This document shows positions 2,735 through 7,479 of a stretch of 7,856 bases of DNA, piece after piece. How positions within the stretch are numbered: position 1 is the first letter of the stretch; every line of letters begins with the position of its first letter. The translations under genes and the position numbers were made by a program. The notes under the pieces are model-generated. The model did not search any database, was not told the DNA's origin, and saw only the letters and a list, made by a program, of their open reading frames with translations. The DNA is from Chloroflexota bacterium (GTDB lineage: Bacteria; Chloroflexota; Anaerolineae; CG2-30-64-16). Location of the stretch: the NCBI GenBank assembly GCA_029555885.1, contig JAKPQT010000497.1:1-7856 (forward strand). The letters are read 5' to 3'.

Positions 2735-4489
2735 ATGACCGCGCAACCGGATCGAGAGAAGACCAGGGAGCAACTCGTGCAGGAGTTGGATGCCTTGCGC
2801 CGGCAAGTCGCCGAGTTGGAGGCGGCCCGCGTCCGTGACTACGAGCTGTTCGAACACTCCGGCGAGTCCATTTTCGTCATCGACCCCCTCACCTTTCGGA
2901 TTCTGCATGCGAACACCAATGCCGCCCGCCGCCTGGGCTACCGCCGGGATGAACTGCTGCGCTTGACACTGGCCGATATCGAAGTGCCTCGCAGCGGAGA
3001 CGGTTCGTTGGAGGAGTTCGCCTGGCAATCCGCCGTCAGCGACACGGTTTTCTACGAGTGTCTCTATCGATGCGCAGATGGCCGGGAGATGCCCGCGGAG
3101 GTCAGCAGCCGGCCGGGGCGTTACGGGGGGCAGGAAGTGCTGCTCAACGTCGTGCGCGATCTCACGGCCCGCAAAGAGGCCGAGCGCCAACTGGCCCAGT
3201 ACCGGCATCACCTGGAAGAACTGGTGGCCGCGCGTACAGCCGAGCTGGCGGCTGTTGCTGCCGAGGCACAGCACCTTAACCAGCAGCTCGAACAACGCTT
3301 GGCCGCGGAGCAGGCCATGCTCGAGGGCCTCGAAAAACGCGTGGTCGACCGCACGCGTGAGCTCAACACGCTCTACCAGGTGTCAGCGATTGCTGGTGAA
3401 GCCCTGCCCCTGGACAGGGCGATGGCTCGCTCGTTGGATGTGGTGCTGGCGACTCTGGGCTGTCAGACAGGCGTCATCCATCTGCGGGAAAACAACGAAT
3501 CCCCTCTACAGTTGGTGGCGCAACGGGGCTTCTCGCCCGAGGCTGCTGCAGAGCTGGCGGCTTCCCCTTCGGGAACGGAATGGTGGCACCAGGTGCTGGC
3601 CCGAGACCGGCCGCAGATGCTGCTCGGCACACCGCCTGCGCCGGGTGGGGCGGTCGCGGCCGGGCCCTCTGAGGTTGCGGTTGAGCCTCAGGCCTGCCTG
3701 GCCGTGCCCATTCGGATGCAGGGATGGCCGGCGGGGGTGTTGAGTGTGTTCCGCCAGCAGGGCCAGGGATTCATGGCCGAGGAGCTGGCCCTCCTGACCA
3801 CCATCGCCGACCAGCTTGGCACCGCAGTCGAGAGCGACCGGCTGCGCCGCAGCGAAGAACAGGCCCGGCTGCTGGAAGAGCGCCAGAGGCTGGCCCGCGA
3901 CCTGCATGACGCGGTTAGCCAGTCCCTCTACAGCCTGGCGCTCTTCGCCGACGCGGCACGCGCGCTGGACAGGCACGGTCAAGCCGACCGCGTGTCGCAT
4001 TATCTCGAACGGATCGAGCAGACGGCGCATCAGGCCCTCAAGGAAATGCGGCTGCTGATCTACCAGTTGCGTCCCTCAGGGCTGGAGCACGGCGGGCTGC
4101 GCGCGGCGCTCGAACGCCGGCTCGAGGCGGTCGAACGACGGGCCGGACTGGATGTCACCCTGGATGCGAGCGACGCCGCGGCAGAGCTGCCGGGCCCGGT
4201 CGAGGATGCCCTTTACCGCATTGCCCAGGAAGCCCTCAACAACGTGCTGAGACACTCCCAGGCGACGGCCGTCAAGGTCCAACTGGTAACAGGCCACGGC
4301 TGGGTCGAACTGGCTGTAGCCGACAACGGCATAGGCTTTGACCCCCAGGCTGCTGCCGCAGGGGGTGGCCTGGGCCTTGCCAACATCCGCTATCGCGCCG
4401 AGCAGGCCGGCGGCTCGCTGGTCATTACATCGATGCCCGGCCAGGGGACACAGGTGCGCGTGAGAGTCACTCACCCAGAGGTAGGCTGA
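2735..4489 (+). CDS. Cytosolic PAS-GAF sensor histidine kinase, HisKA_3 (NarX/DesK-like) type
   Basis: This 584-residue kinase should autophosphorylate and pass phosphate to the regulator encoded next. The ATG at 2735 is chosen because GAGGGG (2723-2728) sits 6 bases before it and the PAS-preceding coiled coil starts there; upstream in-frame ATGs lie inside the ATPase gene. In order it has a short coiled coil (5-33), a PAS domain (about 35-150), a second coiled coil (about 150-210), a GAF domain (about 210-368), the dimerisation/phosphoacceptor helix and a HATPase_c domain. The phosphoacceptor is H391 in an HDxxxQ motif (H391, D392, Q396), which in NarX/DesK-type kinases also supports phosphatase activity. 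The N box includes N502 and N503, the G1 box is DNGIG from D530, and a GGGLGL glycine loop follows. No signal peptide or membrane segment is visible, so it should sense something intracellular; the PAS or GAF ligand cannot be read from sequence. Confidence 0.96.
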
Positions 4490-5148
4490 TGGCTGATACT
4501 GAACCCATCCGTATCCTGATTGCTGATGACCATGCCATCGTGCGCGAGGGCCTACGGGCACTGATCGACTCCCGGCCCGACCTGCAATTGGTTGGCGAGG
4601 CCGCCGACGGTGCGGCGGCCGTCGAGAAGGCGAGGGAGTTGCGGCCGGACGTGATCCTGCTGGACCTGCTGATGCCGCGCAAGAGCGGCGTCGAGGCCAT
4701 CGGCGACATCGTCCGCGAGAATCCGGCGGCCCGCATCCTGGTGCTCACCAGCTTCTCAGACGATGACCAGGCGTTTCCGGCCATCAAGGCCGGGGCAATG
4801 GGCTATGTGCTCAAGGACTCGCTGCCGGAGGACTTGGTGCAGGCCATCCGGGCCGTGCACCGGGGCGAGCCCTCCCTCCATCCGACCATCGCTCGCCGGC
4901 TCATGCAGGAGTTGGGCGGGGCCAAGCCGGCGCCAGCCCCCGCCGACCTGTTGACCGAGCGCGAGCTCGAGGTGCTGAAGCTGATGGCCCGCGGCCTGAA
5001 CAATGCGGAGATTGCAGAGGCCCTGGTGGTCAGCAAGCGGACAGTCGACTCGCACATCAACAGCATCCTGGCAAAGCTCCAGGTATCCAACCGCACCCAG
5101 GCCGCGCTGTACGCCCTGCGCCAGGGGTTGGTGAGCCTGCACGACTGA
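4489..5148 (+). CDS. NarL/FixJ-family response regulator (receiver + LuxR-type HTH)
   Basis: This is a full-length 219-residue two-component regulator. The receiver has the acidic pair D13/D14, phosphoacceptor D59 in LLDLLMP, T87 and K109 in the YVLKD strand, so all catalytic positions are intact. A Pro/Ala linker (about 145-152) leads to a LuxR-type helix-turn-helix at about 153-219 with [15 protein letters not shown] and the recognition region [16 protein letters not shown]. Its ATG shares one base with the kinase stop (TGATG), which implies translational coupling, and AGAGG at 4477-4481 lies 7 bases upstream. It almost certainly receives phosphate from the adjacent kinase and binds DNA as a dimer. 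Its targets are unknown; the downstream membrane and lipoprotein genes are candidates by proximity only. Confidence 0.97.
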
Positions 5149-5196
5149 CCTCTCGGTAAATATACTGACGTCTCCTCCGTATAGTTGCCGGGCCAG

Positions 5197-5221
5197 GACC
5201 GCTCGCAAGAGCGGTCTTTTT
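5197..5221 (+). terminator. Rho-independent terminator of the ATPase-kinase-regulator operon
   Basis: A perfect 8-bp stem (GACCGCTC with GAGCGGTC) closes a GCAA tetraloop, a stable GNRA type, and is followed directly by five T residues at 5217-5221. It lies 48 bases after the regulator stop codon and is a textbook terminator for the + strand. Confidence 0.92.
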
Positions 5222-5326
5222 GCGCTCGCAAATTCGGGGGTCTTGCTGATGCGCTCGTAACCGAAGTGCGTCATATTGGCCGTGTATAAATCATGAATTT
5301 AGCCGCAGTGAGTCGCAGTGAACGTG
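5222..5326 (+). promoter_or_regulatory. Candidate upstream region of the receiver-META gene
   Basis: Because a strong terminator lies just upstream, the next gene needs its own promoter here. A TATAAA at 5285-5290 could act as a -10 element, but I see no convincing -35 at the right distance. An 8-base direct repeat CGCAGTGA occurs at 5304-5311 and 5314-5321 (10-base period), and the second copy covers the putative GTG start. TGCGCTCGCAA (5221-5231) recurs with one change at 5250-5260. No good ribosome binding site is visible. All of this is suggestive only. Confidence 0.3.
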
Positions 5327-6124
5327 ATGATCCTCGCCGCACCAGGACGCTTGCGCGATGGACTGCAAGCCCTCCTGGCTTCGTATCTCGATGCTGAGCC
5401 GCTGGTGGCCGGCGAAGGTCAGCCCGCGGCAGAGGCGATTCGCGACGTGCTGCCCGACCTGGTCATCCTGGATGCAGGGTGGTTGGGTGCCGGGACCGCG
5501 GCACTCGTGCAGGAGGTCAAGTCCCACTGGAGCCGGATGGGCTGTATCGTGATGGTGGACCGGATCGCGCACTTCCGGGCCATGCAGGAGGCCGGGGCGG
5601 ACCATGTCCTCTTACGAGGCTTTTCTGTGATCCGGCTGTTCGAAGCCGTCGATGCACTGCGCCGCCGTAACCCCGGCGGTATGTCTGATGTGCACGTCAC
5701 GCGAGATGCGTCCGAGCCGGCGCTTCGTAGTGCAGGCGACCCGGGCTCCGGCCCGGCGCACGATGACGTGCTGCCTGGAACTCGCTGGGCTGTCACAGCC
5801 TATGCTATGGGGCCGGGCCTGGCAACGCCCCAGGGCGATGCGGCCTTCACCCTGGAGTTCACGCTGGATGCCAGGGTCAATGTATATGCGGCGTGCAGTT
5901 ACTTCACAGCCACATACGCTGCGGAGGGAGATGCCCTTTCCGTTGCCGGGTTGTCGGGTGATACGAACCTGTGCGACCCTGCTGCGGTGAAGCACGTCAA
6001 TGCGTTCTTGGCCGCTATAAGTGCGGCCAGCAGCTTCAAGATGTTGGGCAATCATCTGTATATCACCAATGCTACCGGTCTGAGGATGCTTGAATGTGCC
6101 CAGATCGAAGCAACTAACTCATAA
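5318..6124 (+). CDS. Degenerate receiver domain fused to a META (HslJ-like) domain
   Basis: This is a 268-residue protein with two parts. Residues 1-118 follow the NarL-type receiver pattern: RLRDGLQALL after strand 1 and PDLVILD, which keeps the phosphoacceptor-like D52. However, the acidic pair is replaced by A7/A8, the conserved Thr by D81 and the conserved Lys by R100, so normal phosphorylation is unlikely. A Gly/Ser/Pro-rich linker (about 118-152) leads to residues 153-262, which fit the META domain pattern: GTRW start, a TLEFT strand, C193 in the usual GCN region, a DTNLC segment with C219, then LYITNATGLRML. META domains are usually in exported proteins such as HslJ, yet no signal peptide is present, so this copy should be cytosolic. 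The start is uncertain: GTG 5318, GTG 5324 and ATG 5327 are all possible and none has a clear ribosome binding site. A stop at 5309 bounds the frame. It probably heads a transcript with the next gene. Confidence 0.85.
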   Translation: MNVMILAAPGRLRDGLQALLASYLDAEPLVAGEGQPAAEAIRDVLPDLVILDAGWLGAGTAALVQEVKSHWSRMGCIVMVDRIAHFRAMQEAGADHVLLRGFSVIRLFEAVDALRRRNPGGMSDVHVTRDASEPALRSAGDPGSGPAHDDVLPGTRWAVTAYAMGPGLATPQGDAAFTLEFTLDARVNVYAACSYFTATYAAEGDALSVAGLSGDTNLCDPAAVKHVNAFLAAISAASSFKMLGNHLYITNATGLRMLECAQIEATNS

Positions 6125-6145: not shown

Positions 6146-6538
6146 ATGGACACGGCAGCTTTCGCAATCGGCATCGTTACATCACTCGTCCTGACAACGC
6201 TCGTTAACGCGTTGGTCATCTGGATCGTCAGCAAGCTCAATCTCGGCTTGCGTGTCAGCGGCTTCGGCGGCGCGATTCTGGCAGCCCTCGTCATCGCATT
6301 CGTCAACTTCTTGCTGGCGCTCCTGCTGACTGCAGCGAGCGTCTCTATGGGTACAGGCATCCTGGGTTCTCTTGTGGCTCTGGTCGTCGCAGCTGTCGTG
6401 CTGCTGATCGGCGACAAGATCCTCCCGAACTTGAAGGTCTCCGGTTTTGGGGGAGCGATCCTTGCCGCCATCGCTATCGCTGTGTTCAACTGGCTCATCG
6501 GCGTCCTGCTGGCTGCGCTGGGCCTGGTCATCGGCTAA
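6146..6538 (+). CDS. Small four-helix membrane protein, YvlD / phage-holin-IV superfamily
   Basis: This 130-residue, very hydrophobic protein has about four membrane segments (about 6-29, 41-63, 70-90 and 103-129). Its diagnostic feature is the repeated motif VSGFGGAILAA at 37-47 and 98-108, each followed by a helix containing an Asn (N54, N115). This matches the two-fold layout of the PF04020-type family, named for a phage holin but common in bacterial chromosomes (YvlD-like) with no settled function. The ATG at 6146 has AAGGA at 6131-6135, 10 bases upstream. It lies 21 bases after the receiver-META gene, so the two are probably co-transcribed, and a terminator-like hairpin follows at once. 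There are no phage genes nearby, so a role in phage lysis is not supported; a membrane-stress or envelope role is only inferred. Confidence 0.88.
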   Translation: MDTAAFAIGIVTSLVLTTLVNALVIWIVSKLNLGLRVSGFGGAILAALVIAFVNFLLALLLTAASVSMGTGILGSLVALVVAAVVLLIGDKILPNLKVSGFGGAILAAIAIAVFNWLIGVLLAALGLVIG

Positions 6539-6548
6539 AATCGCCTGC

Positions 6549-6578
6549 AATAGCCCCGCCGTGCGGCGGGGCTATTTT
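6549..6578 (+). terminator. Intrinsic terminator or attenuator after the YvlD-like gene
   Basis: A perfect 12-bp stem pairs 6549-6560 with 6565-6576 around a GTGC loop. The GC-rich core AGCCCCGCC is flanked by an AT base that gives a short T-run, TTTT, at 6575-6578. It begins 10 bases after the stop codon. The next gene starts only 28 bases beyond, so it may be a partial terminator. Confidence 0.82.
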
Positions 6579-7314: not shown

Positions 7315-7348
7315 CAGAGTTGTGGTGCTGCGCCTGTTAAGTTGATCG

Positions 7349-7392
7349 TCAACACAGGGGTTGAAATTACGCTTCAACCCCTGTGTTGATTT
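7349..7392 (+). terminator. 17-bp perfect inverted repeat, probable terminator after the BI-1-like gene
   Basis: Bases 7349-7365 pair perfectly with 7373-7389 around a 7-base loop, and T7390-T7392 follow. The stem is long enough for an intrinsic terminator, but the T-run is only three bases, so its strength is uncertain. It starts 34 bases after the stop codon. Each arm is also a separate dyad (TCAAC-N6-GTTGA), so a role as a protein-binding site is possible. Confidence 0.65.
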
Positions 7393-7479
7393 GACTGGGG
7401 CTTCTGAAAGAGAAGGATTCAGCTAGCAGAGGAGTATGTATCGATGCAGTTGGTATCTGAGAACAAGGAGAATTCAGAA
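7390..7479 (+). promoter_or_regulatory. Leader of the lipoprotein gene with two ribosome binding sites
   Basis: TTGACT at 7391-7396 could be a -35 element, but no good -10 follows at 16-19 bases. AGAGGAG at 7428-7434 precedes an ATG at 7444 by 9 bases, and AAGGAG at 7465-7470 precedes the in-frame ATG at 7480 by 9 bases. Both could start the lipoprotein; the downstream one gives the more normal signal peptide. Confidence 0.4.

Follow-up and report, generated by a model that had tools for sequence, protein, structure and literature searches.

The window analysed here, a stretch of 7,856 nucleotides from a Chloroflexota bacterium, raises the question of what a receiver domain does when it has lost most of its active site, is fused to a META domain, and is encoded after a sensor kinase and a response regulator with an intact receiver (Table 1). 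The fusion gene has a possible alternative start, an ATG at 5327, and P0003, the one other protein found with this architecture, begins at the matching Met.

Table 1. Positions of the fusion gene, its parts and its neighbours in the window
Feature	Position	Strand	Basis or remark
PAS-GAF-HisKA_3-HATPase sensor kinase, presumed partner	2735..4489	+	Pfam (scanned from 2729)
NarL-type response regulator (receiver and GerE)	4489..5148	+	acidic pair, Asp, Thr and Lys all kept
Intrinsic-terminator-like hairpin (9 pairs, loop of 4, T run)	5196..5221	+	in the regulator/fusion gap
Pseudo-receiver-META fusion gene, 268 aa	5318..6124	+	GTG start
Pseudo-receiver domain, residues 1-118	5318..5671	+	predicted model, Foldseek and VIA, family alignments
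Linker, residues 119-151	5672..5770	+	drifts relative to P0003, low pLDDT
META domain, residues 152-257	5771..6088	+	Pfam, model, alignment
META cysteines C193 and C219	5894-5896 and 5972-5974	+	alignment
PF04020 membrane protein gene	6146..6538	+	Pfam; starts 21 nt past the fusion gene

The terminator-like hairpin in front of the fusion gene has a z of -3.67 (fold of 5185-5230) and was also found by a separate hairpin scan; it is absent from the output of a consensus scan. Another strong hairpin (about 6549-6576, z -4.37) follows the PF04020 gene, and the fusion gene and the PF04020 gene are probably carried on one transcript. Further downstream are genes for Bax1-I and then a YscW lipoprotein (both by Pfam), and between these two lies a long hairpin at 7348-7390 with 18 pairs and no T run (z -5.98, fold of 7335-7410). 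The gene directly 5' of the kinase (13-2724), which is cut at the window start, encodes a large TPR protein that also matches AAA_16 weakly. The Pfam scan of the kinase itself marked no membrane segment. A consensus promoter scan of the window gave nothing above chance, and a TATAAA at 5285-5290, picked out by eye, is unsupported as a promoter element.

The first half of the fusion protein is predicted to adopt the (beta/alpha)5 receiver fold, as the earlier note had proposed for residues 1-118, and its Foldseek structural matches are receivers. A profile search against PF00072, also proposed there, gave 14.1 bits, which is under the curated cut-off of 30.2, and two relatives scored 25.3 and 23.9 bits. 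Because the Pfam score is below the cut-off, the receiver assignment rests on structure and relatives. Matches to quinolinate phosphoribosyltransferase at about residues 50-119 were ruled out, since the structural matches there are receivers. The overall quality of the full-length model is low (pLDDT 57, pTM 0.47), such that the relative placement of the two domains is not readable from it.

The acidic pair that binds Mg2+ is replaced by A7/A8 (5336-5341), and the Lys site is occupied by R100 (5615-5617). The phospho-acceptor D52 (5471-5473) is kept. The earlier note had assigned these positions in the same way; its D81 at the Thr site was off by one, as counting from the conserved AGAD places V80 (5555-5557) there. 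The protein therefore lacks the full set of residues (DD, D, T and K) that marks a phosphorylatable receiver. A pseudo-receiver, as defined in the accessible part of a 2025 review, is a receiver without at least one of the five active-site residues (PMC12632262), and the first half of the fusion is a pseudo-receiver by this definition. It is not an aspartate-less receiver (ALR), a term that the accessible part of its source applies where the phospho-acceptor Asp is missing (PMC4395418), because D52 is present. The domain should not bind Mg2+ normally, and it is probably not phosphorylated.

The META barrel is usually a domain of envelope lipoproteins. Here the second half scores 43.6 bits against PF03724 (cut-off 24), a META fold is predicted when the domain is folded alone, and the alignment agrees, which together bear out the earlier identification of a META domain with cysteines C193 and C219. 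The claim that there is no signal peptide also holds: by eye, the fusion has no lipobox-like or signal-peptide start, and the receiver occupies its N-terminus. A lipobox-like start was seen by eye in 17 of 27 META ORFs from the same class, the others being cut or starting otherwise. The META profile, the predicted fold and the two cysteines are held in common with HslJ (2kts), 2la7 and Leishmania META1, and MxiM is a fold relative. In contrast to the HslJ-type envelope lipoproteins, the META domain of the window follows a receiver, lacks a lipobox start and has lost several META residues. In an alignment from which three loci (L136, L142 and L144) were dropped, it departs at five residues that are near-invariant in other METAs (G189, N194, M224, Q226 and E227), and this loss is consistent with a changed role.

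There are only two matches to the full-length protein among the 7,995 candidates scored from about 5.8 billion proteins, namely its own cluster (4 member sequences) and P0003, which has the same receiver-META architecture with 73% identity over 97%. The META half alone retrieved the same two proteins (134 candidates). With a 19-row family profile, 66 proteins were found among 7,999 scored candidates, and PF03724 is marked in only two of them, which are again these fusions. The survey for the same domain order that the earlier note had called for thus recovered the fusion in just two proteins, both metagenomic; as the searches score only candidates with shared short words, further fusions may exist. 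The nearest relatives lack META: P0011, with 119 aa, is 72% identical over 44% of the query, and P0007, with 124 aa, is 62% identical. No match was found in a plasmid collection. No relative was found in genome contigs scanned with a two-row alignment, for which the peptide patterns were narrow (P0011 fits neither), and order-wide searches of 48 and 25 genomes with strict cut-offs gave no closer relative, an empty answer that is uninformative. With the regulator as query, the best matches are Anaerolineae and Chloroflexi MAGs (60 and 56% identity), followed by Actinomadura (48%). Judging from these relatives, the META fusion appears to be a rare, late addition, and the conserved unit is a stand-alone pseudo-receiver near a kinase/regulator pair.

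The first such relative (L081) came from a search of six Chloroflexota-type genomes reached via the regulator; it is a 130-aa stand-alone receiver located 3' of a kinase and a NarL regulator. With a three-row profile, at least 109 of 396 genomes of the class Anaerolineae have a match at E <= 1e-8, with at most 11 candidates scored per genome and a weak end that includes ordinary regulators. We collected 60 loci from the best 67 matches listed (7 were skipped, two of them with long ORFs), which were picked by receiver similarity and not by neighbourhood, and aligned them with the window, P0003, P0007 and P0011 to give 64 rows. The acidic pair is missing in 53 of these rows, two of which are cut before the pair. 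Among these 53 pseudo-receivers, 46 keep the Asp and 26 keep the Lys; in P0011 the second acidic position is occupied by Glu, and P0007 has Glu at the position of D52 and Thr at the Lys site. Most have the sequence A-x-P-G-x-x-R-D in the former acidic pocket, and 59 of the 64 rows have a Gly after the Lys site. The remaining 11 rows keep all five active-site residues and are canonical single-domain receivers.

A quick maximum-likelihood tree of 104 rows, which excludes the cut receivers G281 and G282, places 51 pseudo-receivers on one side of a branch with an SH-aLRT of 99 (86 once ten active-site columns are left out). Next to them are the 11 canonical single-domain receivers (83) and then 35 NarL receivers, with 7 OmpR receivers as the outgroup; trees were built on 115-125 columns, and many forks are open. 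The window and P0003 (94) nest with the unfused P0011 and P0007 (100). Because of this order, the history is most simply read as one in which a NarL-type single-domain receiver would have lost its chemistry and META was joined later in one lineage. The NarL-type origin suggested in the earlier note is supported by this branching away from OmpR receivers. The canonical single-domain receivers (L129, L130 and nine other rows) are candidate ancestors of the pseudo-receivers. Like the pseudo-receivers, they have Gly after the Lys and often follow a NarL regulator (8 of 11); unlike them, they keep the active site, and three have an ACAACA-type dyad instead of TACGTCA.

Helix alpha-1 is a main kinase-contact surface of receivers, and alpha-4 and alpha-5 form the usual dimer face. 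Within the family, alpha-1 is the best-kept helix, with a mean top-residue frequency of 0.54 as compared to 0.35-0.41 in the other helices, and it is also the most regulator-like (0.30 versus 0.12-0.17). This conservation may be partly structural.

At least 1 kb of upstream DNA is available for 56 of the 60 loci, and a NarL regulator is present on the same strand within 1 kb in 34 of these (26 pseudo-receivers and 8 canonical single-domain receivers) and absent in 22. A kinase precedes the regulator in all 34 loci. Pseudo-receiver distances track regulator distances (Mantel r 0.53, 27 pairs, 0 of 5000 permutations as high), which shows shared inheritance of the two, not contact. A terminator-like hairpin occurs in 22 of 32 regulator-to-receiver gaps, against 0.7 expected from shuffles that, as in the k-mer, 350-nt and dyad tests below, hold base counts and not dinucleotides; the window has such a hairpin as well. 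Thus, the receiver gene often forms a transcription unit by itself. The genes that follow it differ from locus to locus. Among 51 scanned neighbours, mostly downstream, no Pfam family has more than four matches (first 25 of 66 families), and so no common output partner is seen. META genes with lipoprotein-type starts by eye lie downstream in two loci (L161 and, after a canonical receiver, L194), PF04020 genes lie near the pseudo-receivers of L201 and L217, and a YscW lipoprotein gene follows one canonical receiver (L212). As these are few of 60 loci, an envelope theme and a nearby source of META are suggested rather than shown. In one locus (L168, 2921-3672, genome G225), the regulator and pseudo-receiver genes are separated by two small genes that by eye resemble toxin-antitoxin genes.

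The candidate operator TACGTCA-NN-TGACGTA emerged from k-mers enriched in 33 upstream regions, taken from 32 loci plus the window. The 60 loci (570,791 bases) contain 33 sites that score 11 of 14 or better, and 18 of these fall within 300 nt before the receiver, where 1.0 is expected; loci L001-L080 have 19 matches in 1,340,055 bases. Measured upstream from the start of the profile match and not from the start codon, a site of this score lies within 350 nt in 20 of the 50 loci with a pseudo-receiver (a set that includes the window, which has none) and in 0 of 11 canonical loci, with 0.7 expected over all 61; the other 30 pseudo-receiver loci are below the threshold. Of the 28 loci outside the discovery set, 10 carry a site no more than 302 nt from the receiver match, and three of these ten (L168, L181 and L182) are closely related to a locus used for discovery. 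In 12 whole genomes, picked mostly because a locus had a site, there are 11 places with at most one mismatch, in 8 genomes (4 of 12 have none), and 8 of the 11 lie before a pseudo-receiver; a reversed control gives 5 places. The pseudo-receiver promoter is the sole such place in five genomes and one of two in three more. A large regulon of weaker operators is unsupported, as counts at up to three mismatches are below the control in five of six genomes and above it in one. Elsewhere, L215 (G033) has three operator-like sites, which precede the receiver match by 73, 692 and 1495 nt, and the outer two lie among genes between the regulator and the pseudo-receiver. In G002, the gene after the pseudo-receiver encodes an MCP-type dCache domain, and a second operator copy (TACGTCATTTGTCGTA, L222, G002:C254:918-933) lies 5' of two genes for signalling proteins, of which the second looks CheW-like by eye. 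These neighbours hint at a connection to chemosensing.

The NarL heptamer consensus is TACYYMT. The candidate operator shares its 7-2-7 geometry with high-affinity NarL sites, as given in a paper that also describes an engineered NarL site (PMC4549865). With a dyad criterion that is blind to the inner bases, a dyad is found in 22 of 61 regions, where 4.6 are expected. The heptamer agrees with the recognition helix of the regulator in 16 of the 18 loci that have both, a count inflated by kinship and by the drawing of the three classes after the data had been seen. Helices of the form [E/D]RT-x-R accompany TACG[T/G]CA in 7 of 7 loci, EAT/ETT-x-R accompanies ACAACA or CCAACA types in 3 of 3, and in all 6 loci with RT-x-[S/A/G] the sixth base of the heptamer is A. 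Several of these rows are closely related to one another, and the two other dyad loci, G223 and G231, fit no class. The regulator used was the best match in the stretch, with 4 of the 22 dyad loci lacking a regulator peptide and five regulators (G225, G347, G033, G217:C141 and G231) lying at a distance of more than 1 kb or on the opposite strand. Some ERT-x-R regulators are found without a dyad by the blind criterion (e.g. G335:C227, G393 and G308:C7). The agreement between helix and heptamer nevertheless supports direct binding of the candidate operator by the pair's own regulator in relatives. There is no 7-2-7 dyad upstream of the window's fusion gene (best score 9 of 14), and its regulator has the recognition helix SKRTVDSH, unlike the helices of operator-bearing loci. 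We infer that the fusion gene is nevertheless under its own regulator, though the operator is absent there.

The reading that we favour, at roughly even chances, is that the pseudo-receiver is a feedback brake on the kinase, with the META barrel as an added input or a tie to a membrane protein in the lineage of the window. The residue pattern, the link to the regulator in many members and the conservation of alpha-1 lead us to favour this explanation. The pseudo-receiver would be made when the pair's regulator is active, would dock on the partner kinase via its retained alpha-1 face, and would limit autophosphorylation, closing a negative feedback loop. Most probably, the META barrel joined to the brake either gives it a second input or ties it to the membrane protein encoded next door. 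The input would be a hydrophobic molecule bound inside the barrel, or the invariant thiol pair C193/C219, which here would lie in the cytosol. The phosphorylation-independent docking or sensing module envisaged by the earlier note is supported in part, by the frequent loss of the acidic pair, the well-kept alpha-1 and the many kinase/NarL neighbours. Against a brake, D52 is kept and many relatives keep the Lys, so that weak phosphorylation is possible. A bolder version, to which we give rather low credence, is that the pseudo-receiver brake is the strongest target of the pair's regulator, and that one lineage's brake captured META as a cytosolic sensor, providing a second, independent input.

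It is unlikely, in our estimation, that the pseudo-receiver instead pairs with the NarL regulator as a heterodimer, tuning its phosphorylation or DNA binding and not the kinase. The two proteins have locus and history in common, and the accessible text of the review offers WhiI with BldM, and CmrT as proposed, as precedents (PMC12632262). However, alpha-4 and alpha-5 (0.41 and 0.38) are less conserved than alpha-1.

A reading without feedback, in which the pseudo-receiver is an output switched on by the regulator, such as a constitutively active adaptor, seems distinctly unlikely. In the window, the domain would hold META beside the co-transcribed membrane protein, the PF04020 gene begins right after the fusion, and in L201 and L217 a PF04020 gene lies near the pseudo-receiver. 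The genomes in which the pseudo-receiver promoter is the sole near-perfect site, or one of two, also fit an output. The lack of a common downstream partner argues otherwise, and the kinase/regulator pair is the commoner neighbour.

We consider it improbable that D52 is still phosphorylated, inefficiently, making the domain a phosphate sink or slow receiver. Such a role would suit the retention of Asp and Lys in so many pseudo-receivers and the Glu of P0011, and the review notes that phosphorylation is not necessarily lost when DD, T or K is substituted (PMC12632262). However, the acidic pair, Thr and Lys are all altered in the window, P0007 has replaced even the Asp, and Osp and FixT are reported as unphosphorylated in the accessible portions of their papers. 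Finally, it is very improbable that the fusion is a decaying or chance product of read-through from a pseudo-receiver gene into a META gene: the altered META residues, the rarity of the fusion and a weaker codon-position GC bias in the META half would fit, but P0003 has the same architecture and the same META departures, and both halves are conserved between the two proteins while the linker drifts.

Known systems offer precedents for a brake, described here from the accessible portions of the papers. Osp of Rhodobacter sphaeroides keeps the Asp but has neither the acidic pair nor the Lys, and it is not phosphorylated. It inhibits the autophosphorylation of CckA, CtrA activates it, and osp adjoins a TetR-type gene and not its kinase (PMC9430884). 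FixT of Caulobacter and Sinorhizobium inhibits FixL autophosphorylation (PMC9430884, PMC7078487), and in Caulobacter a sensory Fe-S cluster is tied to FixT stability (PMC7078487). The window's protein resembles both in having a single receiver fold without the acidic pair, and its META domain is an addition comparable to the Fe-S module. The genes for FixT and Osp are activated by their own two-component systems; here the corresponding sign is the operator and helix agreement in relatives, with none in the window. Unlike these alphaproteobacterial proteins, which have no META, many relatives here lie beside a HisKA_3/NarL pair with a NarL-type operator. The likeness is one of residue pattern and regulator link, and kinase inhibition here is predicted. 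CmrT of the Clostridioides difficile CmrRST system is likewise a pseudo-receiver encoded with an otherwise normal kinase/regulator pair (PMC12632262). CmrT is itself an OmpR-family regulator (PMC12548384), in contrast to the present family, in which a DNA-binding output domain is absent.

The abstract of the 2025 review describes the activation and inactivation of bacterial pseudo-receivers as a mystery (PMC12632262). In a literature search that left most subscription papers outside, no paper was found that names both a META domain and a receiver domain, or both a pseudo-receiver and Chloroflexi. The family has many members, often with a kinase/regulator neighbour, and its operator is paired with the recognition helix in many relatives, which makes the feedback idea directly testable. 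The canonical single-domain receivers in the same gene position provide a before-and-after comparison, and the META fusion would be a case of a usually exported domain reused inside the cell.
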